This document shows positions 8,191 through 45,469 of a DNA stretch of 64,000 nucleotides, piece by piece. The notes beneath the pieces were generated by a model that saw nothing but the letters and a program-made list of their open reading frames with translations, was not told the origin of the DNA and did no database searches. The DNA comes from Siphonodentalium dalli. Taxonomy: Eukaryota; Mollusca; Scaphopoda; Gadilida; Siphonodentaliidae. The stretch lies in the NCBI GenBank assembly GCA_032622095.1, contig CP136069.1, positions 123,866,126-123,930,125 on the forward strand, in the 5' to 3' direction. The translations under genes and the position numbers were made by a program. Positions within the stretch are counted from its first letter, which is position 1, and each line of letters starts with the position of its first letter.

Positions 8191-8376
8191 CGTGTGGGTA
8201 CTTAATCAATAATTTTACTGACATTTTCACTATATAGTCCTGAGATCCCAGATTAAGCTTTACATTTTGTTTGTGCGATTGGGAGATGCAGTTCACGTGC
8301 ATGTTCACAACTGTGGCTTCGTGAGCAAAGCTTTATTTTCCAACTAATGTACAGCACATTGGCAAAACATGCCTGT

Positions 8377-8760
8377 TAGTTCGGGAGCCAGGAGGGTTTT
8401 AATTACATTATCGCGCAAGGAAGGTTTGATGATCTCGATTTGTTGGCGGTGATACATGTAGATCATTACGGAAAACTAATTTCTTAAGTTGCGTATTCCA
8501 GGCGTTTAGGGGCCAGATGGCTCTCCAAAACCCCAAAAATGACTTTTAATTACACTATCGCGCAAGTCCACCATCTTTACATTGAATACTCTATTATGTT
8601 CACTGATCATAAAAACATAACTTAAGAACTTAAGTCCACCATTTTTTCCTGAAATGGTCTACTGTATTCACTGATAATAAAAACACAACTTAAGAAAGCA
8701 AATTCCCTGGCGTTTTCAAATAAGAAGAGGTCCATATATAGGTGGTACAAAAAACCCACA
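8377..8760 (+). repeat. Left terminal inverted repeat of the palindromic element
   Basis: Reverse complement of 12600-13252. It ends inward with about one and a half copies of the 156-bp subrepeat (TTCACTGATCATAAAAACA, CTTAAGTCCACCATTTTTTC) that is expanded about five-fold on the right side. Confidence 0.85.
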
Positions 8761-8964
8761 TATATGTAGTTCTTTGTGTGATAATATATAGTCATTTAGT
8801 AACTCAAGCTTAAAACATGACATACAGAAGTGAAACATATTCCTGTTTAAAAATAAAAAAAAACACACTTTGAACATTAAAGCTTCTTGGAACAATTACG
8901 TATTAATTGTCAAGATCATAGAACATAAACACGGAAAGCTTCATTAAGCTATTGAGCTCGGCAT

Positions 8965-10267
8965 CTATTGACAATGAATGTATATATATGGGTCCATTTC
9001 GTAATCAGTGTCGGAGTCATCAGCACAACCAGTTACACGTTCATCGTCCGTATCATCGTTGTCACATTCCGGTTGTTTTGGGATTACTGACTTTGGCAAA
9101 TGCGGCCCATCGAACCAGATGATCCAATACGACCCATCAGCAAGTTCCCATTCACTGCCAGGATCATTGGACAGACTGTTATCAACCACAGCATGCCACA
9201 TATTAGCCACATACTTAGCCCTGTAAATTTTCTGAGGCACACCAGACTTGCAAGGCGGAATACAACTCCCTACAGTCCTTTCAGTTTTGATAACGGTCGG
9301 TTTTCATCCTTCGGCCCAAAAGTTTTCTCAAAACTTCGAATCTGTATTCGTTAATTGGGATGGATTTGCGGGCACCATATAACGTACATGTATACTCTTC
9401 AAGCATCTCGTACGTTTGGTCTGAAACAGATCCTGAGACCAAGTCTGCAAATGCTTCAGGATATCGATCGTCGCGATCTACAGAGAAGCAAAAGGGCGTT
9501 TCTTGACCTTCCGAGCAAAATCGGTCGTATAATCGCATCCGATGTAGACGTGAAATGCTGGCAGCGCAGAACAGATGGTTTCTTCTATTTCCTCAGACAC
9601 AGCTGAAACGTTCAAGTAGCGTCTGTTACCATGTCCAGTTGTGCCAACGTCCATCCAGATAACAGATTTAAATGTATGTATGTGATGCAATAGAATTACG
9701 AGTAAATCTGTGTCCGCAGCTCGTTATACGATGTTACCAACGGGTATTTCATGACCAATATCCACCATGTGTAGTCACAATGTAGACAAACCCTTGTGTC
9801 TGCATCAGGATGATCACAATACAGACTTTCATGGTCTGCTTCTCGACACTGCCATCGACAACAACAAACTTCACACACTCTTCGTCAAAGCCAAGGTACA
9901 CTTCCCTGTCGACCAAGACATGTGTGTGGTGTGAAGAAGACCAATCTTTGGCAAAAAATCGAGGCAGCTGCTTTTTGAAAGATGTAGATTTCAATGCTTT
10001 AGACGCATATTTAGGGATCAACTGCTCAGGACCGGTTATCATGTATGTGACCTGCTCAGCACCTCTGCATTCTCGTTCACAGTCCTGGGTGGAAGTTCCA
10101 CGTATGCATGTGTCGAACACCACGTCCATTCGCTTGGATGTTAGGGTTAATAGCTTGTGAATCACGACACGGGAGAGTCCACCATATGTCTGGGTAAAGC
10201 CGGCGGTAGGTAGTGCAGCAGGAAATTGCCATCGACGATGGCAGATAGAGCGTGGTACCGATGTCAT
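8965..10267 (-). pseudogene. Decayed transposon-borne gene, EADT/DTD/GCD family, left copy
   Basis: Read right to left, the frames give RMDVVFDT, a DCERE..RGAEQ segment, FFAKDW, DHPDADTRV, RAADTDLLVILLHH, IWMDVGTT, ALPAFHVYIGCDYTTDF, a CTLYGARKSIPINEYRF segment, and a C-terminal RAKYVANMW...WIIWFDGPHLPKS. This order matches a large, unnamed (to me) protein family common in cnidarian, mollusc and other invertebrate genomes and linked to repeats. Frameshifts near 9830, 9700 and 9500, and probably 9260, break it. This copy keeps the DTD motif but has DADT instead of EADT. The acidic motif order resembles the FEN1/XPG PIN-like nuclease fold, which is inference. The N-terminal third present in the right copy is missing. 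Confidence 0.8.
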
Positions 10268-10511
10268 GGGGATTGAAGAAGGAATTCTATGTCATCTTCG
10301 CGTTTAGTTGCAAGGGTTGCTAGTCTTCCCAGCATATCCCTCGTGTGGCGGAGCTCTTTAACAACAATTTTTCGCGCCCTTGTTTGAGAAGGTTTTCAGT
10401 TTATTTCTGGAGATGGCCTCTCAAAGCGATCTGGATCATCTGTACATTCCTTCAATAAATCGTGCCGGAGTGTGACAACTGGAAGTAGAGCCGCACTTAT
10501 CAGCGCTGCAT

Positions 10512-12098
10512 TTGAACTATGTGGACTACATACAACTATATGATGTCCGAGCTGAGCTGACTGACAGTAGGATTGATCGTGACAATGGTGACCCCAACAA
10601 GCTTCTCATCTGTATACAGGCTAACGCATATCCATTTACTCTGGAAACAGACGCCCTCTTGAACGTACAGGCCAATGTGCCAGTACTGAAATTAGCGATT
10701 CCCTATTAACAATAAAGAAAGTTGGCAAACAGAAGCACGACGATTTAACGACGATAAAGAGCTCCGCTGCACGAGGGAAAATAGCAATCCTTGCAACTAA
10801 GCGTGAAGTTGACATATAATTCCTTCTTCAATTCCCATTGAGATCGGTACCACTCTCTATCTGCAAGACTGACGGTACAATGGCTCACACGGACAAGAGT
10901 TCATTATTCCCATTGCTCGAGGGGAAGGTCATTGACGATGGGACTCCAGAATTCGTAGATGCTCACATCGTCATTCCTGCTGCAAGACTTACCGTCGGCT
11001 TTACCCCCGACAGATGGTTGACTCTCTCGTGTCGTGCTTCACATACTTTTAAACCTAAAGTCCAAACGAATCGACGTGGTGTTCGACACATATGTGGAAC
11101 CTTCCATCAAGGACTGTGAACGAGAACGCGAAGGTGCTGAGCAGGTCACATACGTGATAACCGGTTCTGAGCAGTTGATCCCTAAAGATGTGTCTAAAGC
11201 ATTGAAATCTACATTTTTCAAGAAACAGCTGCCTCGATATTTTGCCAAAGATTGGTCTTCTTCACACCACACACATGTCTTCGTCGACAGGGAATACACC
11301 TGGGCTTTGACGAGGAGTATGTGGAGTTTATTGTTGTCGATGGCAATGTCGAGAAGCATACCGTGGAAAGTCTGTATTGTGATCATCCGGAGGCAGACAC
11401 AATGTTTGTCTACACATGCATGGTGGATGTTGATCATGAAATACCATGCAGTTGGTAACATCGTAGTACGAGCTGCGGACAGATATACTAGTATTTTTCT
11501 ATTGCATCACATACATACAGTTAAATCTATTATCTGGATGGATGTTGGTACAACTGGACGTGGTAGCAGACGCTACGTGAACGTTTCAGCTGTGTCTGAG
11601 GAAATAGGAGAAACCATCTGTTCTGCGCTGCCAGCATTTCACGCATACAGCGGGTGCGATTATACGGCCGCTTTTGCTCAGAAGGGCAATAAACGCCCCT
11701 TTGCTCTACTTGATCCCGACGATCGATATTCTGAAGCATTTGCAGACGTGGCCTCATGATCTGTTTCAGAAGAAACGTACGAGGCGCCTGAAGATTATAC
11801 ATGTACGCTATATGGTGCCCGCAAACCCATCCCAATTAACGAACACAGATTCAAAGTGTTCGAGAAAGCTTTTGGGCCTAAGAATGAAAACCTACCGTTA
11901 TCAAAGCTGAAAGGGCTGGACGGTAGTAGTATTCCGCCTTGCAATTCTGTTTTGCGTCAGAAAATTGACAGGGCTATTTATCTGGTTCGACGGGCCACAG
12001 ATGCCAGAGTCAGTAATCCCAGAACAACCGGAATGTGACAATGATGATACGGGCGATGAACGTGTACCTGTTTGTGCTGATGACGAAATTGACCCATA
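10512..12098 (+). pseudogene. Decayed transposon-borne gene, EADT/DTD/GCD family, right copy
   Basis: This copy is in inverted orientation to 8965-10267. It starts further upstream with DSRIDRDNGDP and ALLNVQAN, changes frame into EISDSLLTIKKVGK and AARGKIAILATKRE, then LRSVPLSICKTDGTMAHTDKS, RIDVVFDTY, IKDCERER, DHPEADTMF, IWMDVGTTGRGSRRY, ALPAFHAYSGCDYTAAF and CTLYGARKPIPINEHRF. The frame changes near 10670, 11030, 11380, 11420 and 11770, so it is not translatable. EADT and GCD are intact. The DTD seen in the left copy is altered to DRY by a two-base deletion compensated shortly after. It ends near DDEIDP then stop at about 12098. Role unknown; a nuclease-like fold is inferred from the motifs only. 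Confidence 0.82.
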
Positions 12099-12329
12099 AA
12101 TATACATTCATTGTCAATAGATGCCGAGCTTATTGCTTAATGAAGCTTTCTGTGTTTATGTTCTAAGATATTGACAATTAATACCAAGCGCAATTATTCC
12201 ACAAAGCTTTAGTGTTCAAGGTGATTAATGTTTTTTTTTATTTTGAAACAAGAATATGTTTCAATTCTGTATGCCATGTTTTAATCTTGAGTTACTACAT
12301 GCTTATATATTGTCACACAAAGAACTACA

Positions 12330-13095
12330 TATATGTCTGTTGTACCACCCATGGACCTCATCTTATTTGAAAACGCCAGAAAATTTCCGTTCTTAAGTTG
12401 TGTTTTTATGACCAGTGAATACAGGAGACTATTCCAGGAAAAAATAGTGGACTTGCACGATTGTGTAATTAAAAGTAAAATTTTGACATTTTTGTCCCCC
12501 CCCCCCCAAGAAGACCCCTTCTTATTTGAAACGCCAGGAAATTTGCTTTCTTAAGTTGTGCTTTTTTGATCAGTGAATACAGTATAGACTATTCCAGGAA
12601 AAAATGGTGGACTTACGCGATTGTGTAATTAAAAGTGAAATTTTGACATTTTTGGGTCCCCATAGAAGACCCCTTCTTATTTGAAAACGCCAGGAAATTT
12701 CCGTTCTTAAGTTGTGTTTTTATGATCAGTGAATACAGTAGACTATTCCTGAAAAAAATGGTGGACTTGCGCGATTGTGTAATTAAAAGTGAAATTTTGA
12801 CATTTTGGCCCCCCCCCCCCTAGAAGACCCCTTCTTATTTGAAAACGCCAGGAAATTTGCGTTCTTAAGTTGTGTTTTTATGATCAGTGAATACAGTATA
12901 CCATTTCATGAAAAAATGGTGGACTTGCGCGATTGTGTAATTAAAAGTGAAATTTTGACATTTTTGGGTCCCCCTAGAAGACCCCTTCTTATTTGAAAAC
13001 GCCAGGAAATTTCCGTTCTTAAATTATGTTTTTATGACCAGTGAACATAGTAGAGTATTCAATGTAAAGATGGTGGATAGTGTAATTAAAAGTCA
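12330..13095 (+). repeat. 156-bp tandem repeat, about five copies
   Basis: The anchor CAGTGAA(T/C)A occurs at 12413, 12571, 12727, 12885 and 13039. Each unit carries ACCCCTTCTTATTTGAAAACG, CGTTCTTAAGTTGTG, AATGGTGGACTTGCGCGATT and a variable C-run of up to 10 bases. It is the expanded subterminal repeat of the palindromic element. Confidence 0.92.
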
Positions 13096-13252
13096 TTTTT
13101 GGGGTTTTGGAGGGCCATCTGGCCCCTAAACGCCAGGAATGCGCAACTTAAGAAATTAGTTTTCCGTAATGATCTATCACCGCCAACAAATCGAGAGCAT
13201 CAAACCTTCCTTGTGCGATAGTGTAATTAAAACCCTCCTGGCTCCCTAACTA
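13080..13252 (-). repeat. Right terminal inverted repeat of the palindromic element
   Basis: Reverse complement of 8377-8575, with AGTCATTTTTGGGGTTTTGG, GGGCCATCTGGCCCCTAAACG and ACCCTCCTGGCTCCC in the expected inverted order. Confidence 0.88.
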
Positions 13253-13429
13253 TGTGTTTCTGCACTATACAGAGACTATTGTGCAAAATGATTGCATTTA
13301 ACGAAACAAAACATTTTAAATATGAAATTGCTATAAGACTTTATGGTACATACGTATATCTAATAATCCATCGATATCATATAATCATACTATTTCTTGA
13401 ACATAATAACGAACAAAGCAGAAGACATA

Positions 13430-14902: not shown

Positions 14903-15117
14903 TTAACCCTTTCAGTGCCAAGTCCGATTTTTTGTATCAATCCATATTTCCTTGATCATTTTTCAAATTTATTGATTATAATAATGTGATACATTGATGG
15001 AAAGAGCTAAGAGCTCTTTCCATCAATGTATCACATTATTATAATCAATAAATTTGAAAAATGATCAAGGAAATATGGATTGATACAAAAAATCGGACTT
15101 GGCACTGAAAGGGTTAA
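14903..15117. mobile_element. piggyBac-type MITE, perfect hairpin with TTAA target site
   Basis: TTAA flanks both ends and the termini are CCCTTTCAGTGCCAAGTCC and its reverse complement. The 207-bp interior is a practically perfect palindrome with about 102-bp arms around an AAG loop near 15010. A TTAA duplication with CCC(T)-initial ends is typical of piggyBac-derived MITEs. The near-identity of the arms suggests a recent insertion or frequent gene conversion. Confidence 0.92.
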
Positions 15118-17392: not shown

Positions 17393-18149
17393 TGCCATTC
17401 AACAAACGTAATATCCATGATCCAAAGAAGGCAGTAAATATGGCCACCATTGTGGCTAAAGTTGCCTTTTTCTCCAATTATACTGCCTCAAACTTGACTA
17501 CATGTGAAGAATTAGCCCAACCGTTAGATAATTTACTGTTTTGTAGTGAGCACACACAAACACGGGGGAATCATACGATATATTATATAAACGTGTGTAT
17601 AATACTGATAGGCACAACCCGCCTTTAACTGTATCTTTAGACTTGTACCAATACTCACAACAAATGCAGGTAGCTGACTCTAACTGAGGACAGAGTTTTC
17701 GTAGTAATTTTAAAGGCATTCGCAGTGGATACATATGCAAAAAAAATATAAAGGTATGTCTGTAAATACATCACCACTAAGAAGAACGTTGATAAATAGA
17801 TTCTTTTTTTCGTATATTCATTATTGATGGTTCTCCTATTCAGCATGCTGAAACCACTGTTGTAAACAAAACCGCCACAGTGTCAACAAACATTCATAAG
17901 CGTGTAGTAAGTTCACATATTTTAGTTTAAATGTGATTTTCAAAATATTTTCCAATGCTTTGACTATCCAATGTTAACGTCAATATTTGGCGATAAACTT
18001 TGGTATCTTATTGGACTAATTTGACTTTTATAGGTAATTCCACTGTACCAGTAATGTTTACATAACAGTAGTTTTTATATGCAAAATCTCGTTTATTGGT
18101 GAGTTATTAATAATGATAATAAGAACGAAATCGATTCATTTTTGCATGA
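17393..18149. other. No gene recognised
   Basis: Short open frames occur on both strands, but I see no family resemblance or convincing exon boundary. Confidence 0.4.
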
Positions 18150-20755
18150 TACATGTACTCGTCGATGATACCTCTTGTTGTTGATGATAGATGTGATCGT
18201 TGATGATACATGTACTCGTTGATGATACATGTAGTTGTTGATGATACATGTACTCGTTGATGATACATGTACTCGATGATACAAGTACTCGTTGATGATA
18301 CATGTACTCGTTGATGATACATGTACTCGTTGATGATACATGTACTCGTTGATGATACATGTACTCGTTGATGATACAAGTACTGGTTGATGATACAAGT
18401 ACTCGTTGCTGATACATGTACTCGTTGATGATACATGTTGTTGTTGATGATAGATGTGCTCGTTGATGATACATGTACTCGTTGGTGATACATGTAGTTA
18501 TTGATGATACAAGTACTCGTTGATGATACATGTACTCGTTGATGATACATGTACTCGTTGTTGATACATGTAGTTATTGATGATACATGTGCTCGTTGAT
18601 GATACCTCTTGTTGTTGATGATAGATGTGATCGTTGATGATACATGTACTCGTTGATGATACATGTAGTTGTTGATGATACATGTACTCGTTGATGATAC
18701 ATGTACTCGTTGATGATACAAGTACTCGTTGATGATACATGTACTCGTTGATGATACATGTACTCGTTGATGATACATGTACTCGTTGATGATACATGTA
18801 CTCGTTGATGATACATGTACTCGTTGATGATACAAGTACTGGTTGATGATACAAGTACTCGTTGGTGATACATGTACTCGTTGATGATACATGTTGTTGT
18901 TGATGATAGATGTGATCGTTGATGATACATGTACTCGTTGATGATACATGTAGTTGTTGATGATACAAGTACTCGTTGATGATACATGTACTCGTTGATG
19001 ATACAAGTACTCGTTGATGATACATGTACTCGTTGATGATACATGTACTCGTTGATGATACATGTACTCGTTGATGATACATGTACTCGTTGATGATACA
19101 TGTACTCGTTGATGATACAAGTACTGGTTGATGATACAAGTACTCGTTGGTGATACATGTACTCGTTGATGATACATGTAGTTATTGATGATACAAGTAC
19201 TCGTTGATGATACATGTACTCGTTGATGATACATGTACTCGTTGATGATACATGTAGTTATTGATGATACAAGTACTCGTTGATGATACATGTACTCGTT
19301 GATGATACATGTACTCGTTGATGATACATGTAGTTATTGATGATACATGTGTAGTTGTTGATGATACACAAGTACTCGTTGATGATACATGTACTCGTTG
19401 ATGATACATGTACTCGTTGATGACACATGTACTCGTTGGTGATACAAGTACTGATTGATGATACAAGTACTCGTTGATGATACATGTACTCGTTGATGAT
19501 ACATGTAGTTATTGATGATACATGTGCTCGTTGATGATACAAGTACTCATTGATGATACAAGTACTCGTTGATGATACATGTACTCGTTGATGATACATG
19601 TTGTTGTTGATGATAGATGTGCTCGTTGATGATACATGTACTCGTTGACGATACATGTAGTTATTGATGATACATGTGCTCGTTGATGATACAAGTACTC
19701 GTTGATGATACAAGTACTCATTGATGATACATGTACTCGTTGATGATACATGTACTCGTTGATGATACATGTAGTTATATATGATACATGTGCTCGTTGA
19801 TGATACAAGTACTCGTTGATGATACAAGTACTCGTTGATGATACATGTACTCGTTGATGATACATGTACTCGTTGATGATACATGTAGTTATTGATGATA
19901 CAATTACTCGTTGATGATACAAGTACTCGTTGATGATACATGTACTCGTTGATGATACATGTAGTTATTGATGATACATGTGCTCGTTGATGATACAAGT
20001 ACTCGTTGATGATACAAGTACTCGTTGATGATACATGTACTCGTTGATGATACATGTTGTTGTTGATGATAGCTGTGCTCGTTGATGATACATGTACTCG
20101 TTGACGATACATGTAGTTATTGATGATACATGTGCTCGTTGATGATACAAGTACTCGTTGATGATACAAGTACTCATTGATGATACATGTACTCGTTGAT
20201 GATACATGTACTCGTTGATGATACATGTAGTTATATATGATACATGTGCTCGTTGATGATACATGTAGTTGTTGATGATACATGTAGTTGTTGATGATAC
20301 ATGTAGTTGTTGATGATACAAGTACTCGTTGATGATACATATACTCGTTGATGATACATGTACTCGTTGATGATACATGTACTCGTTGATGATACATGTA
20401 GTTGTTGATGATACAAGTACTCGTTGATGATACATGTACTCGTTGGTGATACATGTACTCGTTGATGATACATGTACTCGTTGATGATACATGTAGTTGT
20501 TGATGATACATGTAGTTGTTGATGATACATGTACTCGTTGATGATACATGTAGTTATTGAGGATACATGTACTCGTTGATGATACATGTAGTTATTGATG
20601 ATACATGTGCTCGTTGATTATACATGTACTCGTTGATGATACATGTAGTTGTTGGTGATCAATACATGTACTCGTTGATGACACATGTACTCGTTGATGA
20701 TACCTGTAGTTGTTGATGATACATGTACGCGTTGGTGATACATGTAGTTGTTGTA
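18150..20755. repeat. 19-bp minisatellite, about 137 copies, with higher-order repeats
   Basis: The unit is ATGATACATGTACTCGTTG. Common variants replace TACTCG by TAGTTG, TAGTTA, GCTCG or TTGTTG, and ACATG by ACAAG. The order of variants is itself repeated: the rare word GTAGTTATAT at 19771 recurs at 20227, exactly 456 bp or 24 units away, with matching neighbours. Because 19 is not a multiple of 3 and the minus strand has no stop word, all three minus frames stay open for hundreds of codons. Those frames are artefacts. Confidence 0.97.
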
Positions 20756-23908: not shown

Positions 23909-23997
23909 GTGAGTGGTGTGTTCTGGTGAGCCAGGCCTGAGAATATGGTGCCGGATATTTGCAGAATGAGGTACATATCCCATATAAAAATCCCCCT

Positions 23998-24440
23998 TGG
24001 TGTCACCTTGGTGAAACCATGGTTTCACCAAGGTACCACCTTGGTTCACCATGGTGACATCTTGGTTCACCATGGTGGTAGCACAGTAAAGTGGCATCAC
24101 GGTGAAAACACCACGGTTGTACCAAGGTGGTATCACGGTGGTAGCACAGTAAAGTTTTTGTACCAAGGTGAAACCATGGTGGCACCAAGGTGGTACCACG
24201 GTGGTAGCACACTAAAGTCTTTGTACCAAGGTAAAACCATGGTGGCACCAAACCCGACCAAGGTATCACCATGGTGGTAGCACAGTATGGTTTTTCTACC
24301 AAGGTGACACCAAGGTATCACCACGGTGGTAGCACAGTAAAGTTTTTCTACCAAGGTGAACCATGGTATCACCAAGTATAACCACGGTGGTATCACAGCA
24401 CCAGTGAAGTTTTCAATCAAGGTACCACTATTACATTTCA
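23998..24440. repeat. CCATGGT-type palindromic minisatellite, left arm
   Basis: Irregular units such as GGTGGTAGCACAGTAAAG, TTTTTGTACCAAGGTG and AAACCATGGTGGCACCAAGG. Nearly every unit contains a small palindrome (ACCATGGT, CCACGGTGG), so the tract can form many hairpins. Confidence 0.9.
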
Positions 24441-27400: not shown

Positions 27401-28589
27401 CTTTGCGATAAATCAAAACTTTTATTCACACAGTACGTACATGTAGTCTGAGATTTATCGTAAAGATGTTTGAGATTTATCGTAATGGTTTGCGTGTTAT
27501 CGCGAAGGTGTTTGTGATTTTTCGCAAAGTTTTGCTCCTCTCACCATTCTTGCATCTGGCTGTGAATGACTGATCGGTCTATTTTAGCCCGACCATTCAA
27601 TTATAAATTGATAGGTTGTTCACGGAGACCTGTTTAAGATGGCTGATTTATAATGTTTACACACAAATTAAGAAATTTTTAGCACAAATTTCAAAAATGT
27701 TTGCGATAAATCGCAAAATATAATCACCCAGTATGCAGTCTGAGAGTCATCGTAAAGATGTTGGAGATTTATCGTAAAGGTTTGCGAGTTATCGCAAAGG
27801 TGTTTGTAATTTTTCGCAAAGTTGTTTTGTGATTTATCGCGAAGGTTTGCTCGCCTTATCCACATGCATGCTGGCTGTCAAAGAACGATCGGTCTATTTT
27901 AGCCCAACCATGCTATTATAGATCGATTGGTGGTTTACCCAGACCTGTTGAAGATGTCGGATTATATTTATATTTATAAGGTCCAAGCCAATGCATGAAA
28001 ATATATCTGCGATAAATCACAAACCATTGCGATTAATCGCAAACCTTTTGTAATCAATCGAAAACCTTTACACTAAATCGCATATACCGGTACTTATTGC
28101 AAAGTTGTTTGCTATTCGCAAAGGTTTGCGATTTATCGCAAGGTAGTTTTTTTATTTATCGGGCTATTCTAGATCGATTGGTGTTTCATCCGGACCAGTT
28201 TCAAGATGTTTGATTTATGTTTACCTACTATTATTGCACACAAATTAAGAAATTATTTTTAGACATTCAGACCAATTTTACTGCACATGCAGGGAACAGG
28301 AAATCCCGAAATTGAGAACTTAAACTTTGATTTAAGTACAAAATCACGATCAAGGTTCTATACTAATAAAAGTAATGCATGTATAATTCGGATTATTTCA
28401 TTATCACTATGCAATGGAGTGGTTTTGTACTTTATTCAATGTTTAAACACCATAGCAACATTGCCAACGTGCCACTTTGTTATATTTGGCGTCGGTCATG
28501 TTTCGCAATTTCGAGTGCTTGGTATCTGGGCAGGTTCTCCGCTAAGTACATGTACCTATATGCTTGGTTCTCTACAATATTGCAGTAAA
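24441..28589. other. Interior of the foldback-like region; no gene recognised
   Basis: An AT-rich interior. It holds a (TCATATTCATTC)-type tandem repeat at about 25240-25375, a GA-rich stretch at 25466-25512, and the threefold repeat at 27230-28230. No transposase, reverse transcriptase or exon was recognised on either strand. Confidence 0.5.
27230..28230. repeat. Roughly 310-bp tandem repeat, three diverged copies
   Basis: The marker GATCGGTCTATTTTAGC begins at 27266, 27572 and 27887, with a weaker fourth near 28155. Each copy then has GACCTGTTTAAGATG-type and ACACAAATTAAGAAAT phrases. Between the markers are many (T)TTGCGATAAATCGCAAA words in both orientations. Confidence 0.85.
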
Positions 28590-29395
28590 CTGCCATGGTT
28601 AACCACATTAAATTACCATGGTTAACAAGTGTAAACCACCACGTTAAACCAAAGTATAGCACCATGGTAAACCACAGTATACCACCATGGTAAACCACAG
28701 TATACCACCATGGTAACACCACGGTAAACCACAGTATACCATCATGGTAACACCACGGTAAACCAAAGTATACCACCATGGTTACTTATTGGTAACACCA
28801 CAGTATACCACCATGGTAACACCACGGTAAACCACAGTATACCATCATGGTAACACCACGATAAACCACAGTATACCATCATGGTAACACCGCGGTGAAC
28901 CATGGTAACACCACGGTAAACCACAGTATACCATCATGGTAACACCACGGTAAACCACAGTATACCATCATGGTAACACCACAGTAAACCTCAGTAAACC
29001 ATCATGGTAACACCACGGTAAACCACAGTATACCACCATGGTAACATCATGGTAAACCATAGTAACACCACGGTAAACCACAGTACACCACCATGGTAAC
29101 ACCACGGTAAACCAAAGTATACCACCATGGTGACACCATGGTAAACCATGGTAAAAAAACCGAGATATTTTGGCCGCCCATCGTGGTGTCACCATGGTGG
29201 TTTACCAACGTGGTTTACCATGGTGGTTTACCACCATGGTAACACCTCGGTAAACCACCACGGTATTACCACCACGGTAAAACCATGGTAAACCACCAAG
29301 GTAAACCACCATGGTGACACCACGATGGGCGGCCAAAATATCTCGGTTTTTTTACCATGGTTTACCGTGGTGTTTTACCATGGTGGCACCAAGGG
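28590..29395. repeat. CCATGGT-type palindromic minisatellite, right arm
   Basis: Units of about 34 bp built from TACCACCATGGTAACACC and ACGGTAAACCACAGTATACC. It includes a perfect inverted pair: 29140-29206 against 29300-29366, about 67 bp per arm, both carrying GGCCGCCCATCGTGGTG or its complement. Confidence 0.92.
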
Positions 29396-32610: not shown

Positions 32611-33650
32611 GTAAATGTATAACTGAGAACTAAGTTCTTGATATTTAAATTTTAACTTTGAATGTGTCACCTCTAGCTACCCCATGTATACGTATGTACA
32701 AATGCCAGTTACATGTAACAAAGAGCGGATAGAACCCTGCGATTTAGCTGAGAAAGTACGGAACACAAGTCACATATTTCATTCTACTATGCCGTCATTT
32801 TCACAGAATTTACTAAGTTTGATGTCCACAAAATGAACAAGTTCGCAACATACATTACTACGCCTACGGTATAATTACAAGTTCGTGCTACAAAAGTTGC
32901 GTATCAGACTTTTTGTCGAATATCGAATGCGGGTTGAATTGGGTGCATCATAGTTTTTCAAGATTGCGTTTACCGGCTTTTATACCTATCCGGTGTACCA
33001 CATGAACCTCGTTAAATAAGTTGTTGGACATAACTATGAGTTATTATTGACTTATTATAAATCATCCTGTAGCTCGCGATGACTATATTCCGCACCATCT
33101 TCTAGTCCGTATTAAATGCGATCATTCACTGTCATAAGTGTAATACGGAATGTATCAGCAGATATATTGGATTCATCTCCGTTCCGTGGGTTCAGAGATT
33201 CATCCAGCCCGGTTCCGTTGTTTTGCGCTACATGTCAAGGATCTGGAGTAGCATTTCCATATATGGAGCTTTTGTATGTTGACTTCCACATATGGAACAT
33301 TGACCTGTAGCACTAAAACCACGGAACCGGGCCTGGTAGATCCAATATGGCCGCGAGTTAGTGACTCTGTGGATGGCGTAACGTTAGTTCAGAAAAGATG
33401 TCTAGTTTACCATTCATGCAAATCAGTGGACTCAAACCTTTTGAATGTTCAACTGCAAGGAACTTATATTTCTGTGACTTTGGATAACATAGGTCACCTC
33501 AATGCCATCTTAAGGGGGGACTGTGCGAAAATTCAACAATTTATAAGACGCCTTCTAATATATAAATAGAGGATCTACAACGAGTCCTCAGTTTATAGCG
33601 GAATTCTGGAGTCCAGACCTAATTTACTTTACGAGTTTTGTAAATTCCGC
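32611..33650. other. Intron of the EF-hand gene; one hairpin
   Basis: Contains a hairpin at 33208-33331 in which CCCGGTTCCGTTGTTTT pairs with AAAACCACGGAACCGGG. The sequence TAAATTCCGCTATAATTACC, just before the duplication start, partly mirrors TATAGCGGAATTC at 33595. No other gene is seen. Confidence 0.55.
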
Positions 33651-33891
33651 TATAATTACCCAGTTTAAACTGGGGACGAGTTGTTGATTCTATTTTATTA
33701 CATATCTATCAACGTAATTCGCATGATCGCACGAGTTTCCAGGCGTGTGATAATTCTCAGAATCGCACTAGTGCAATCTGTCGACGGAACTATTTCATTC
33801 AGTGTTAAAACTCAATTAAATTCACATTTTCTGTACCGGAGATGTACGATAGTGAGTCAACTTACTATGATACGGAGATATGTAATAAAAA

Positions 33892-34060
33892 TAGAACCGC
33901 ATGAGTGTCTGGATTTTGACGAATTTTCGCACTCGATTTGTTGGCGGAACGCGATACCTCTCGTGCGGGACGCAGTCCCGCACTCGAGGTATCGCTCCGC
34001 CAACAAATCGAGTGCGATAATTTTGTCAAAATCCAGACACTCATGTGGTTCTATTATTAC
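33892..34060. mobile_element. 169-bp palindrome, copy 1
   Basis: GTAATAAAAATAGAACCGCA at the left pairs with the complement ending GTGGTTCTATTATTAC. The match runs through GAGTGTCTGGATTTTGAC and CGCACTCGATTTGTTGGCGG to a centre near 33976 (CGGGACGCAGTCCCG). It is a hairpin MITE or a snapback product. Its core word CTCGATTTGTTGGCGG also occurs in the 8.4-13.25 kb element (near 8440), hinting at a shared origin. Confidence 0.85.
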
Positions 34061-34553
34061 ATGATCCAACACCTCGGCAAAACATACTTAAATCAACAAA
34101 CGCGATGCGAAACTAACAACGGCTTCTATATAAGGCATGCGATGACGTTTTACATAATTATGCGTGGTTTGCCTGCGCAAACAAATAGTCCCATATAAAT
34201 AAAGACCCTTTGTCGTATTTAATGGCGTATATTTAATGAAATAACTTTTCAAACTCTTCATTCATTAGAGTTTATTGGAAAAATATTGGAAGCCCTATAT
34301 AGTATTTGTGAGACGTAACGTACTGGAATTTAAAGAGACGACAAACCGGAAGACAAAGGTCATCTGGCACAATTTCCTGTTATTAAACGAACGTTTAATA
34401 TCACAATTTATGGAATGTGTTTATTGAATGGAATAAGGGTAGGATCATGTAATAAACATCAATATGCAACAAATTAATTAATTTGAGTCGATGGTACATG
34501 CTAAATGCACCCACATATTCAAAGAACTGCAGATAATAATATGATAATTATAC

Positions 34554-35362
34554 CTAAAATAGTATTTGACTGCCAGTCCTGTACTATAGGTTACGTTGTG
34601 CGATAAGCTAAAATAGTATTTGACTGCCAGTCCTGTACTATAGGTTACGTTGTGCGATAAGCTAAAATAGTATTTGACTGCCAGTCCTGTACTATAGGTT
34701 ACGTTGTGCGATAAGCTAAAATAGTATTTGACTGCCAGTCCTGTACTATAGGTTACGTTGTGCGATAAGCTAAATAGTATTTGACTGCCAGTCCTGTACT
34801 ATAGGTTACGTTGTGCGATAAGCTAAAATAGTATTTGACTGCCAGTCCTGTACTATAGGTTACGTTGTGCGATACGCTAAAATAGTATTTGACTGCCAGT
34901 CATGTACTATAGGTTACGTTGTGCGATAAGCTAAAATAGTATTTGACTGCCAGTCCTGTACTATAGGTTACGTTGTGCGATAAGCTAAAATAGTATTTGA
35001 CTGCCAGTCCTGTACTATAGGTTACGTTGTGCGATAAGCTAAAATAGTATTTGACTGCCAGTCCTGTACTATAGGTTACGTTGTGCGATAAGCTAAAATA
35101 GTATTTGACTGCCAGTCCTGTACTATATGTTACGTTGTGCGATAAGCTAAAATAGTATTTGACTGCCAGTCCTGTACTATAGGTTACGTTGTGCGATAAG
35201 CTAAAATAGTATTTGACTGCCAGTCCTGTACTATAGGTTACGTTGTGCGATAAGCTAAAATAGTATTTGACTGCCAGTCCTGTACTATAGGTTACGTTGT
35301 GCGATAAGCTAAAATAGTATTTGACTGCCAGTCCTGTACTATATGTTACGTTGTGCGATAAG
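34554..35362. repeat. 54-bp minisatellite, 15 copies (duplication copy 1)
   Basis: Each unit includes CTAAAATAGTATTTGACTGC, CAGTCCTGTACTATAGG and TTACGTTGTGCGATAAG. The copies are almost identical; one lacks an A at about 34773. Since 54 is divisible by 3, an 18-residue repeating open frame appears on the minus strand, which is not evidence for a gene. Confidence 0.97.
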
Positions 35363-35970: not shown

Positions 35971-37205
35971 ACAATGTGTGTGCATCCAGATTTTGACATT
36001 TTCTCAATTATGGAGATATACCTCTGATATATGGATTTCAGACACTATAAACTCATAATTTACCCAAAAAGGTGGCAAGATACCATGCATGCATGCCTGG
36101 CATTTTTAACATTCGTTTTATATTTTCCAATAATATCAGGAAGCTATGAGACTAATGAGCTATCGCAACAAACCAACCCGGATACTGCAAAAACGAGATA
36201 TCGAACAGATTGGGCTAAACAAAAATCGATGTTGGTATTCAAATTTCACAACCTTGAAAATCGTAACCGAAGTCACTTGAACACTTATATCTTCATCAAC
36301 GACTTATAATAGTCATATTTATATATTGGCGGGATACACAGTATATAAACTAGCAACATTGACACACATATATAACCCATTCGCTCTGTTTTGGTGTTGA
36401 CTAATTTATATAGGCGAAGAAAACGATGAATACTCACTCCGATGCGAGACAACTTGCCGCCATGTTTGAGCAAATTATATATGACGTAAAGGTTCCCGGC
36501 CATGAACTTTGAGCGAGGTTTCTCGAAGTTCCATTATACCAGAGGCATATACTTACAAGGTTCTGGTTGGAGAAATGCAACCATTATAGACTTTGAACAC
36601 TTTATATGTGTGGCGGTTAAGCATCAACCATGCATAATGAGAGGGCTAAACTCTACATTCCAAACAAGGTCCGGATACATCAATTCGCATTGGATTCTCA
36701 GTTTCAGTAGGAAGTGCAGTCATAAATCATACCATATTCTTTTTCCGTATTTTATATTACTCATACGAAAAAATACGCATTCAAGTGCCACGTATATATG
36801 CGGAGTGTATCCATTTTAAACATATTATCTTGAAATGACTTTTATATTCGAGTAATTACAAAAAGCAGAAGTCTTAAAGGTACTCAACCCGATAAAACTC
36901 CTCTCAATTACTATTTCAATGGCTTCGGAGGTCAAAAATATTTGATTCGAGTCGAGGAAGTCACCCATCAAAGCTCAGATTTGTTAGATATCGATTTTAG
37001 AAATCTATTATTTTTCATTATCGGGAATACTATCTGACCCAGAACTCAGTCAAAAATGCGTTAAAATTACCACTTGATTTTAGAGTTATTCATCCTTGTC
37101 TGTTTGAATAGATTTGGAGTACACATCCAGAGCAGATTACGGCAGTTATTAGTACTCATCTCGAGAACATAACAAATTTGAAAAATCAATATCTAATAAC
37201 TCCCC
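35971..37205. other. Downstream of terminal exon copy 1; no further exon recognised
   Basis: Open segments at 36031-36309 and 36502-36819 are preserved identically at 39425-39703 and 39896-40213, but only because the whole block was copied recently. They resemble no family I know. The right end, from 36874, is the left part of a TTAA MITE cut by the duplication junction. Confidence 0.5.
36874..37205. mobile_element. TTAA MITE truncated at the duplication junction
   Basis: Matches 40268-40596 (TTAAAGGTACTCAACCCGAT...) but stops at TAACTCCC, where copy 2 of the segmental duplication begins. The missing right end shows that the duplication breakpoint fell inside the element. Confidence 0.85.
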
Positions 37206-37446
37206 TATAATTAACCAGTTTAAACTGGGGACGAGTTGTTGATTCTATTTTATTACATATCTATCAACGTAATTCGCATGATCGCACGAGTTTCCAGGCG
37301 TGTGATAATTCTCAGAATCGCACTAGTGCAATCTGTCGACGGAACTATTTCATTCAGTGTTAAAACTCAATTAAATTCACATTTTCTGTACCGGAGATGT
37401 ACGATAGTGAGTCAACTTACTATGATACGGAGATATGTAATAAAAA

Positions 37447-37615
37447 TAGAACCGCATGAGTGTCTGGATTTTGACGAATTATCGCACTCGATTTGTTGGC
37501 GGAACGCGATACCTCTCGCGCGGGACGCAGTCCCGCACTCGAGGTATCGCTCCGCCAACAAATCGAGTGCGATAATTTCGTCAAAATCCAGACACTCATG
37601 CGGTTCTATTATTAC
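37447..37615. mobile_element. 169-bp palindrome, copy 2
   Basis: Same palindrome as 33892-34060. The arms here match each other slightly better (GAATTATCGCACTCG against CGAGTGCGATAATTTCG), which is expected if copy 1 gained a mutation after duplication. Confidence 0.85.
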
Positions 37616-38108
37616 ATGATCCAACACCTCGGCAAAACATACTTAAATCAACAAACGCGATGCGAAACTAACAACGGCTTCTATATAAGGCATGCGATGA
37701 CGTTTTACATAATTATGCGTGGTTTGCCTGCGCAAACAAATAGTCCCATATAAATAAAGACCCTTTGTCGTATTTAATGGCGTATATTTAATGAAATAAC
37801 TTTTCAAACTCTTCATTCATTAGAGTTTATTGGAAAAATATTGGAAGCCCTATATAGTATTTGTGAGACGTAACGTACTGGAATTTAAAGAGACGACAAA
37901 CCGGAAGACAAAGGTCATCTGGCACAATTTCCTGTTATTAAACGAACGTTTAATATCACAATTTATGGAATGTGTTTATTGAATGGAATAAGGGTAGGAT
38001 CATGTAATAAACATTAATATGCAACAAATTAATTAATTTGAGTCGATGGTACATGCTAAATGCACCCACATATTCAAAGAACTGCAGATAATAATATGAT
38101 AATTATAC

Positions 38109-38756
38109 CTAAAATAGTATTTGACTGCCAGTCCTGTACTATAGGTTACGTTGTGCGATAAGCTAAAATAGTATTTGACTGCCAGTCCTGTACTATAGGT
38201 TACGTTGTGCGATAAGCTAAAATAGTATTTGACTGCCAGTCCTGTACTATAGGTTATGTTGTGCGATAAGCTAAAATAGTATTTGACTGCCAGTCCTGTA
38301 CTATAGGTTACGTTGTGCGATAAGCTAAAATAGTATTTGACTGCCAGTCCTGTACTATAGGTTACGTTGTGCGATAAGCTAAAATAGTATTTGACTGCCA
38401 GTCCTGTACTATAGGTTACGTTGTGCGATAAGCTAAAATAGTATTTGACTGCCAGTCCTGTACTATAGGTTACGTTGTGCGATACGCTAAAATAGTATTT
38501 GACTGCCAGTCATGTACTATAGGTTACGTTGTGCGATAAGCTACAATAGTATTTGACTGCCAGTCCTGTACTATAGGTTACGATGTGCGATAAGCTAAAA
38601 TAGTATTTGACTGCCAGTCCTGTACTATAGGTTACGTTGTGCGATAAGCTAAAATAGTATTTGACTGCCAGTCCTGTACTATAGGTTACGTTGTGCGATA
38701 AGCTAAAATAGTATTTGACTGCCAGTCCTGTACTATATGTTACGTTGTGCGATAAG
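38109..38756. repeat. 54-bp minisatellite, 12 copies (duplication copy 2)
   Basis: Exactly 12 x 54 bp. It carries the same variant units as copy 1 (CGATACGCTAAAATAG followed by CCAGTCATGTAC; final unit TACTATATGTTACG), so the length difference arose by loss or gain of whole units after duplication. Confidence 0.97.
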
Positions 38757-44090: not shown

Positions 44091-44300
44091 GCCAATGCGC
44101 GTGGTAGGCGAAACAAAATCGCGCGAACTGGCAGGTATACAACAAATATATAATATAATAATAATAAATGTAGTATATAGTTCAAAGCCAATCAGCGCGC
44201 GGTGCCGGTGACGATTGCATTTATAGTAGCTTATAATGGTGGGTCCATTTACATTCCGATCGTTCCGTTCTGGTGTCGGTATGTTTGTGTGACTAGTCGA
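44091..44300 (+). promoter_or_regulatory. Candidate promoter of the GPCR gene
   Basis: AGCCAATGCGCG near 44091 and AGCCAATCAGCGCGCGG at 44186 carry CCAAT (NF-Y type) cores, followed by a short CpG-rich stretch, about 190 bases before the ATG. No TATA box is placed convincingly. The start site is not determined. Confidence 0.35.
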
Positions 44301-44377
44301 AGATATTAGATCGCTGGATCAAACTCGTCTTTAGACTTCCTTGGCACGCCAAGACAGATTTGAGCCAAGGAACCAAG

Positions 44378-45469
44378 ATGGCAAACAACAACAGCACGAG
44401 TGATATAGAAATGCACGGGAGTCATGTAGGCCCATGGCTTGCGAAGATGATAGCGATTGGAGATCCGTGTCTTTTGTTCGTTGGGTACACGGGAAGCGTT
44501 CTGTCAGTGATTGTCTTCAGCCAGAAATCCATGCGACGCAGCAACATAGCGCGATATTTCATCTGCCTCGCCGTGCTCAATGCACTCTGCCTTTCGTGCG
44601 AGGTGTTAGTCCGCTGGTTCCATTACGTAATAGGTATCAACTTGACCAGTCTGAATCTCTACAGCTGCAAGATAATGGAATCGCTTTTTTATATGACAGA
44701 AGTATCATCATCGTGGATACTGGTGTGTGCAACATTGGACAGGACAATAACGATAACCCTACCTCGTTCCCAGACAATTCGCTGCACTCCAAGAAAAACA
44801 TATGTGAACATCGTCATTGTTATTGTGCTTTCATTCGTGCACGCTGGACCCATTCCTTTTGGGAGGACTCTGAAGACCGTAGGTAATCGCAAGGTATGCA
44901 CATACGACGGAAGTGCGTCATATCTGTACTACATGGACCATATCTTCGAATGGCAAGATTTTTTGGTCTATTCCGGTATTCCGATAATAGTGTTATCCTT
45001 CTGCAACGTCGTACTTTTCAAAACAGTTGTTGGAAATGAACGTATGTTGTCATCAGTGTTGAGTAGAGAAGGACGCCTCCAGCGCATTGGGAATCGGAGC
45101 ACTACGTCATCAATCCTTGTGATGTTGTTGCTTACTAATATTCAGTTTATTGTTACCACAATTCCAATCTCCGTCGTATTTATCGTTAGTAAGTCCACAG
45201 CGGTTGGCGGTCCGATTATGAGCAACATGGCATCAACATTTATTGTTAGTACATTCATAGCATCAAGTAACAACGCTCTAAATTTTTTCACATACTGCGT
45301 TGCTGGCAAACGTTTCAGACGGGAGCTGCGTATTGTGTTCAGCAAATGTCTCCACACAGCAAATGTTGCAAGCAATAGCGGAGAGTTGACCCACAGAACT
45401 GGTAACGATTCAGGCACTCAGACGTCAGTTGCGGGCACTCCGAGTTCAGTTGATATAACTCATATGTAG
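44378..45469 (+). CDS. Class A (rhodopsin-like) G protein-coupled receptor, single exon
   Basis: 363 residues; the ATG at 44378 sits in an excellent Kozak context (ACCAAGATGG). Seven membrane segments lie at about 24-48, 58-82, 94-122, 141-163, 195-216, 243-268 and 284-307. Visible landmarks are Cys97 at the top of TM3 and Cys174 in loop 2 (the conserved disulfide), DRT121-123 for the DRY motif, NFFTY302-306 for NPxxY, and helix-8 GKRFRREL. N-glycosylation sites are N5 (NST) and N88 (NLT). Unusual: position 2.50 is Asn68, not Asp; position 1.50 is Ser40, not Asn; TM6 lacks CWxP. The TM7 pattern N.xNFF.YC..GKRFRREL is typical of invertebrate neuropeptide-type orphan receptors, so a peptide ligand is likely but unproven. 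Ser/Thr-rich tail from 330 could be phosphorylated. Confidence 0.95.
   Translation: MANNNSTSDIEMHGSHVGPWLAKMIAIGDPCLLFVGYTGSVLSVIVFSQKSMRRSNIARYFICLAVLNALCLSCEVLVRWFHYVIGINLTSLNLYSCKIMESLFYMTEVSSSWILVCATLDRTITITLPRSQTIRCTPRKTYVNIVIVIVLSFVHAGPIPFGRTLKTVGNRKVCTYDGSASYLYYMDHIFEWQDFLVYSGIPIIVLSFCNVVLFKTVVGNERMLSSVLSREGRLQRIGNRSTTSSILVMLLLTNIQFIVTTIPISVVFIVSKSTAVGGPIMSNMASTFIVSTFIASSNNALNFFTYCVAGKRFRRELRIVFSKCLHTANVASNSGELTHRTGNDSGTQTSVAGTPSSVDITHM

Follow-up and report, generated by a model that had tools for sequence, protein, structure and literature searches.

Why does a scaphopod genome hold, within what looks like a single mobile element, two head-to-head copies of one gene in a palindrome of 4.9 kb? 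The question is raised by a stretch of 64,000 nucleotides of Siphonodentalium dalli (contig CP136069.1, positions 123,866,126 to 123,930,125; here called the window, whose own numbering we use throughout). An earlier note, made from the letters of the window alone, took the interval 8377..13252 for a foldback element that had captured or doubled an autonomous gene. With a probability of roughly 85%, we conclude that it is one copy of a non-autonomous family of palindromic foldback elements, in which the ends of two genes were joined head to head, a single master, already broken, was amplified, and mobilisation took place in trans.

A palindrome with exact ends

The earlier note had described a giant inverted duplication around about 10.5 kb, and this is borne out: the inverted arms span 8377 to about 10360 and about 10755 to 13252, with 80-97% identity in blocks. 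From the outside inward, each arm comprises a terminal repeat, then subterminal units some 155 bp in length, and then part of one gene; as had been proposed, the subterminal repeats are inverted in the two halves (about 2 units on the left, 4.6 units of 158 bp on the right). Both arms encode the same protein, directed outward from about 10.5 kb. The element opens with TAGTTC-GGGAGCCAGGAGGG and closes with CCCTCCTGGCTCCC-TAACTA (end cores TAGTTC-GGGAGCC on the left and GGCTCCC-TAACTA on the right), and TGT stands on either side, so that the limits first given for it, 8377 and 13252, prove to be exact. Taking GGGAGCC itself as the end of the element yields no target duplication; the duplication appears once the constant TAGTTM hexamer is included.

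The two gene copies had been thought to keep different motifs, DTD on the left and EADT with GCD on the right. These motifs are indeed where they were placed, but the left copy also retains GCD (with DADT instead of EADT), and the right copy has ADRY where DTD would be expected. The minus strand of the single-copy centre extends the left gene upstream, scoring 28.0 bits against a fuller relative at locus L029, above the 21.0 that shuffled sequence reached at most; the right gene is perhaps, and doubtfully, continued upstream on the plus strand, whose peptide scores 19.9 bits against relatives, below the shuffled maximum of 23.3.

Palindromic copies across the genome

We searched the organism's own genome (2.23 Gb in nine contigs) with three probes. 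The terminal 20-mer, a search that the earlier note had called for, gave 79 exact matches and its reversed control none; a 28-mer from the centre (window 10570) gave 32 matches, and a degenerate 28-mer from the gene arm 74, both with at most 2 mismatches and with no match for the controls. Fifty-eight of the 74 arm-probe matches form 29 pairs within 3 kb, spaced by 830-1867 bp. Since all 29 pairs are in head-to-head order and 28 have a centre match in between, palindromic forms dominate among the arm-probe matches, more diverged single-gene copies being invisible to this probe. Four of the 16 unpaired matches adjoin a centre match; two arm matches, at C3:290842033 and C6:196275253, have neither terminus nor centre close by.

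DNA was read for 35 elements, which account for 52 of the 79 exact termini and leave 27 outside the sample (copies are cited by locus number, as L029 above). Both gene arms and the centre are present in twenty (L009, L010, L011, L012, L015, L016, L017, L019, L020, L021, L023, the window copy, L026, L027, L028, L051, L055, L058, L059, and L060). Two more have both arms and an incomplete centre (L013, L018); three have a single arm within the stretch examined (L050, L052, L056); two are older arms without a centre (L024, L025); and no gene is found in L014, L022, L047, L048, L049, L053, L054, and L057. Among the 16 two-ended copies, 13 have identical 3-bp target duplications, for each of which the chance is about 0.018 under an assumed base composition, and 15 combine one C-type end (TAGTTC) with one A-type end (TAGTTA). 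Subterminal units number 1-9 per arm in these 16 copies and 11 in L058. Seven copies (L009, L012, L014, L015, L017, L020, and L022) carry inserts unlike the window element and unlike each other, except for an insert common to L014 and L015.

L014 and L015 (C3:222.01 and 222.08 Mb) appear to derive from a single insertion locus that was duplicated in inverted orientation; they are about 70 kb apart, and in one of them the gene arms have been lost. L053 (C3:73.11 Mb) and L054 (C3:73.52 Mb) both hold about 85 bp of the family terminus and, beyond it, a similar frame, presumably akin to a helitron-type helicase N-terminal protein.

One broken master

Within the gene part, left arms of different elements are on average 95.8% identical to each other (17 arms, 136 pairs, two mosaics included) and right arms 97.1% (13 arms, 78 pairs), but the left and right arms of one and the same element only 88.8% (13 elements). 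The two arm types are distinguished by 101 diagnostic substitutions and 12 arm-specific indels: 4 right-arm gaps occur in 13 of 13 right arms, and 8 left-arm gaps in 13-16 out of 15-17 left arms with coverage, where it is mainly the mosaics L012 and L018 that depart from the rule. A thirteenth consensus indel (column 25) is an alignment-edge effect and was left uncounted. Not one of the 30 arms is open from end to end, and the longest open stretch is at most 73% of any arm. Between the arm consensus sequences, the proportions of synonymous (pS) and nonsynonymous (pN) differences are 0.081 and 0.091, and the differences are evenly spread over the three codon positions (31/36/29).

Because pN is about equal to pS, the codon positions differ evenly, and indels are shared, the arms decayed before the spread of the family, with no sign of selection. 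Like arms that are 96-97% identical across copies, set against 89% within a copy, together with shared arm-specific indels and the lack of selection, further indicate that a single palindromic master, already broken, was amplified; the proteins for its amplification were presumably supplied in trans. The earlier note had held that the two gene copies decayed separately. For the two arms this is correct, though the greater part of the decay took place in the master before amplification, as the 12 shared arm-specific indels attest. An outgroup arm, L025, has the left state at 41 and the right state at 49 of 93 diagnostic sites.

The gene and its relatives

To look for relatives of the gene, we used the pattern HA[FY][ST]GCD, drawn up for a wider family. 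It matches the genome 200 times (control 0); among 15 of these loci, taken from the first 100 of the 200 matches, open frames reach 781 amino acids. Eight frames, aligned with L031 (a sister family, see below), have in common the motif order IDG...VFD..K..ER.R...EEADT...DTD...HAF-TGCD...GKG. The longer frames, those of L037 and L043, are extended at the N-terminus, and the gene is longer at L029, L035, L037, and L043; L029 is an element of 6.5 kb whose gene is long but broken and whose inverted ends measure 0.55 kb. The gene of the window element corresponds to the C-terminal region, FEN1/XPG-like in character, of a larger gene from a repeat family common in the genome, which tells against the idea of a captured gene; a foldback element with a doubled gene, the other half of that proposal, is supported.

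By motif order the domain resembles FEN1/XPG nucleases, a likeness we put forward with reservation. Five motifs are in register with FEN1/EXO1 in a global alignment, and comparison with a FEN1/EXO1 profile gives a score of 25.0 (maximum 19.6 in 60 column-shuffled controls) with a weak hhalign probability of 3.4%. No convincing relative of the gene was found in Pfam, PDB, viral-contig, and phage searches, from which prokaryote contigs and plasmids were left out. Matches to antibodies look like chance. L029 also has a DUF6589-like stretch (E 0.0018, under the Pfam cut-off). DUF6589 is linked to Academ transposons, although none of the papers searched names this link, and the nuclease of AcademX is specifically of the XPG type.

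In search of an autonomous partner, the N-terminal and transposase-side open reading frames of L029 were compared by tblastn (E <=0.001) with L009-L028, the window, L047-L056, and L057-L060, with no match. Single ends, followed for autonomous copies, led to palindromes, deletions, or unrelated sequence.

Classification and comparison with known elements

Structurally, the window element is a foldback element: terminal inverted repeats make up most of it, it has internal tandem repeats, and it is non-autonomous and has moved as a unit (broken genes, shared centre, target duplications). Its lineage, which the earlier note could not place in any named superfamily, is, with moderate confidence, AcademX of the Academ superfamily, to which the 3-bp duplications and the nuclease-like domain point in a comparison made with the description of AcademX.

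The comparisons that follow draw on excerpts of the published accounts. AcademX elements have 3-4 bp target duplications and encode a nuclease (PMC10045372), and the window family is like them in its 3-bp duplications and, more tentatively, in its nuclease-like domain; unlike them, it keeps the nuclease end alone, twice and palindromically, and no transposase is found in the copies examined. The nearest described process appears, by analogy, to be that of the Drosophila Galileo 2RT copies (PMC3573991), which are likewise non-autonomous, with terminal inverted repeats enlarged by internal sequence, variable internal tandem repeats, and chimeric copies without matching target duplications. However, Galileo belongs to the P superfamily and makes 7-bp duplications, in contrast to 3 bp here, and its longest repeats, of about 1.1-1.26 kb, are extended by non-coding spacer, whereas the window arms measure about 2-2.5 kb and are in large part coding. 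Tetris (PMC4079207) shares long terminal inverted repeats, internal tandem repeats (of about 220 bp, to about 155 bp in the window family), non-autonomy, and a partner not found, but its complete copies are without conserved open reading frames, with no doubled gene in the text excerpted, whereas the window family has one. Tm1 is another foldback element (PMC3169594). KolobokP (PMC9587614) likewise has repeated modules with terminal repeats of their own at both ends, but these are long terminal direct repeats around a transposase; the window arms are inverted, and no transposase was found. Among the papers listed on AcademX/AcademH, and on Academ with foldback or palindrome, none describes a palindromic Academ family in its title or the opening of its abstract.

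Origin of the palindrome and competing explanations

The unit that recurs with one centre between its arms at 28 loci consists of two 3′ ends of a transposon gene, each bearing its terminal inverted repeat and subterminal units, with the head-to-head join falling within the gene. Either an inverted duplication, through a fold-back template switch in gap repair, or the fusion of two AcademX-like copies head to head could have produced such a structure. The founding event would have cost the gene its 5′ half, and with it the transposase, and the resulting palindrome would have been mobilised in trans by the proteins of an intact relative, which would recognise its TAGTTM-GGGAGCC ends and possibly the repeated subterminal units as well.

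Fusion of two source copies that were already diverged and dead, instead of fold-back duplication of one, is the alternative that survives best, and we regard it as quite plausible, if short of even odds: the arms seem to end at different upstream points in the gene, and the arms diverge by 11.2%, roughly 2.7 times as much as left arms do among themselves (4.2%). The outgroup arm is equidistant from the two arm types, as would be expected from a single duplication also, and nothing found separates the two origins. Membership of a superfamily other than Academ, one with the same nuclease-like gene, is somewhat less probable and in our judgment unlikely: the DUF6589-like stretch of L029 lies below its cut-off, but the 3-bp duplications fit the 3-4 bp and the nuclease given for AcademX in the excerpted account (PMC10045372).

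Much harder to sustain is an autonomous two-gene element, divergently transcribed, with both nuclease-like copies of use. Most copies examined do retain both genes, and the two in the window retain different motifs, but equal pN and pS, the 12 shared arm-specific indels, the want of a single open arm among 30, and the lack of a match to a transposase part in the copies examined make this very improbable. More remote still are two single-gene elements inserted side by side in opposite orientation, or nested; arms just 89% identical would suit them, but the same centre in 28 of 29 pairs already refutes this, the target duplications enclose the whole unit, and the repeat and BLAST listings give no inner termini in the middle of the window copy. 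A false inversion produced by assembly, which the earlier note had named, with ends found nowhere else, as grounds for rejection, has a negligible chance of being right, prone as large palindromes are to misassembly: the ends match 79 times against 0 in the control, the arms differ by about 11%, 29 pairs are head to head, and in 13 of the 16 copies with two ends the target duplications correspond to the unit as a whole.

Several observations nevertheless weigh against a non-autonomous family amplified in trans from one broken master of AcademX type: i) identical target duplications are missing in 3 of 16 two-ended copies (L014, L015, and L022), of which L014 and L015 look like a single locus that was duplicated, and both ends of L022 are of the A type; ii) arm parts or centre orientation have been exchanged in three copies (L012, L018, and L058); iii) indels in L024 and L025 conflict with a simple rooting, some L025 indels matching one arm and some the other; iv) a Mantel test of left against right arm distances in 13 elements gives r 0.34, a value reached in 411 of 5000 permutations and short of significance, a weak correlation that is compatible with a star-like burst and is no proof of shared history; v) an autonomous partner sharing these ends did not turn up among 52 of the 79 exact termini, in a search that did not extend to mismatched ends; vi) the L029 query is distant (at most about 40% identity in the shared part), and a transposase part could escape detection; vii) L029, which has the fullest gene, has other ends and no matching 3-bp duplication by eye; and viii) the nuclease-like gene has no PDB profile match and no Pfam XPG match, and its hhalign probability is 0.2% against archaeal FEN1 alone, reaching 3.4% once EXO1 is added.

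Arm exchange and a sister family

L012 and L018 have one right-to-left switch point in common, and in L012 and L058 the centre is inverted relative to the ends. As this switch point and these inverted centres show, the arms within one element recombine, and an arm recombinant could spread further.

A sister foldback family is seen at L031 (4125-8738) and L030. The ends of L031 are related to those of the window family (TAGTCC and TAATCA ahead of the GAGCC core), with a 3-bp duplication, ATA, by eye; it has one gene part, at 45-57% protein identity to the window family, and its long inverted flanks extend just beyond the 3′ end of the gene. Foldback forms may therefore have arisen more than once in the group, of which this one locus was examined closely.

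Features of the window

Coordinates of the palindromic element and its parts in the window
Feature	Positions	Strand	Remarks
Whole palindromic element, 4876 bp	8377..13252		TAGTTC...TAACTA ends common to other copies; TGT/TGT flanks
Target-site duplication TGT, left	8374..8376		
Target-site duplication TGT, right	13253..13255		
Left terminal inverted repeat (C-end, TAGTTC)	8377..8457	+	94% complementary to 13172-13252
Right terminal inverted repeat (A-end, TAGTTA on minus strand)	13172..13252	-	
Left subterminal repeat	8564..8696	-	about 2 units
Right subterminal repeat	12354..13077	+	158-bp unit, about 4.6 copies
Left gene part, FEN1/XPG-like region	8965..10540	-	deletions and frameshifts; inner limit approximate
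Right gene part	10718..12099	+	frameshifts and deletions differing from left; inner limit approximate
Single-copy centre (head-to-head junction)	10395..10717		present in 20 of 35 elements examined

Elsewhere in the window, 33643-35200 and 37198-38756 are direct copies (98.8% identity over 1559 bp), each holding 12-15 units of a 54-bp minisatellite in which an open frame runs for up to 191 amino acids; 14903-15117 is a near-perfect palindrome of 215 bp (98.6%), perhaps a small palindromic mobile element; 18146-20746 is a minisatellite in which a 19-bp unit is repeated about 137 times, its long minus-strand open frames reaching 431 amino acids; 28583-29324 and 23992-24398 are tandem arrays of the ACCATGGTG type, partly self-complementary; 29122-29386 is an 86% palindrome; and 44297-45469 holds a rhodopsin-type G-protein-coupled receptor in a single open frame (7tm_1, E 1e-17).

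Implications

The foldback arms described here are the two coding halves of a source element, beyond mere extended terminal repeats, and the foldback form, best known in Mutator- and P-type elements, is extended to what is probably an AcademX-like lineage. Shared lesions and diagnostic sites allow the events to be ordered: palindrome, neutral decay, burst, and later exchange between arms.

It is an improbable proposition that transposons of this nuclease-bearing group repeatedly turn their own 3′ end into a head-to-head palindrome, as in the window family and perhaps independently in the sister family of L031, and that such palindromes not only ride along with their own family but also silence it. 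The maize Mu-killer locus silences via hairpin RNA; were the proposition true, read-through transcripts of the long inverted gene arms would form hairpin RNA that silences the autonomous elements. The family supplies probes for an autonomous partner and for a test of such hairpin silencing.

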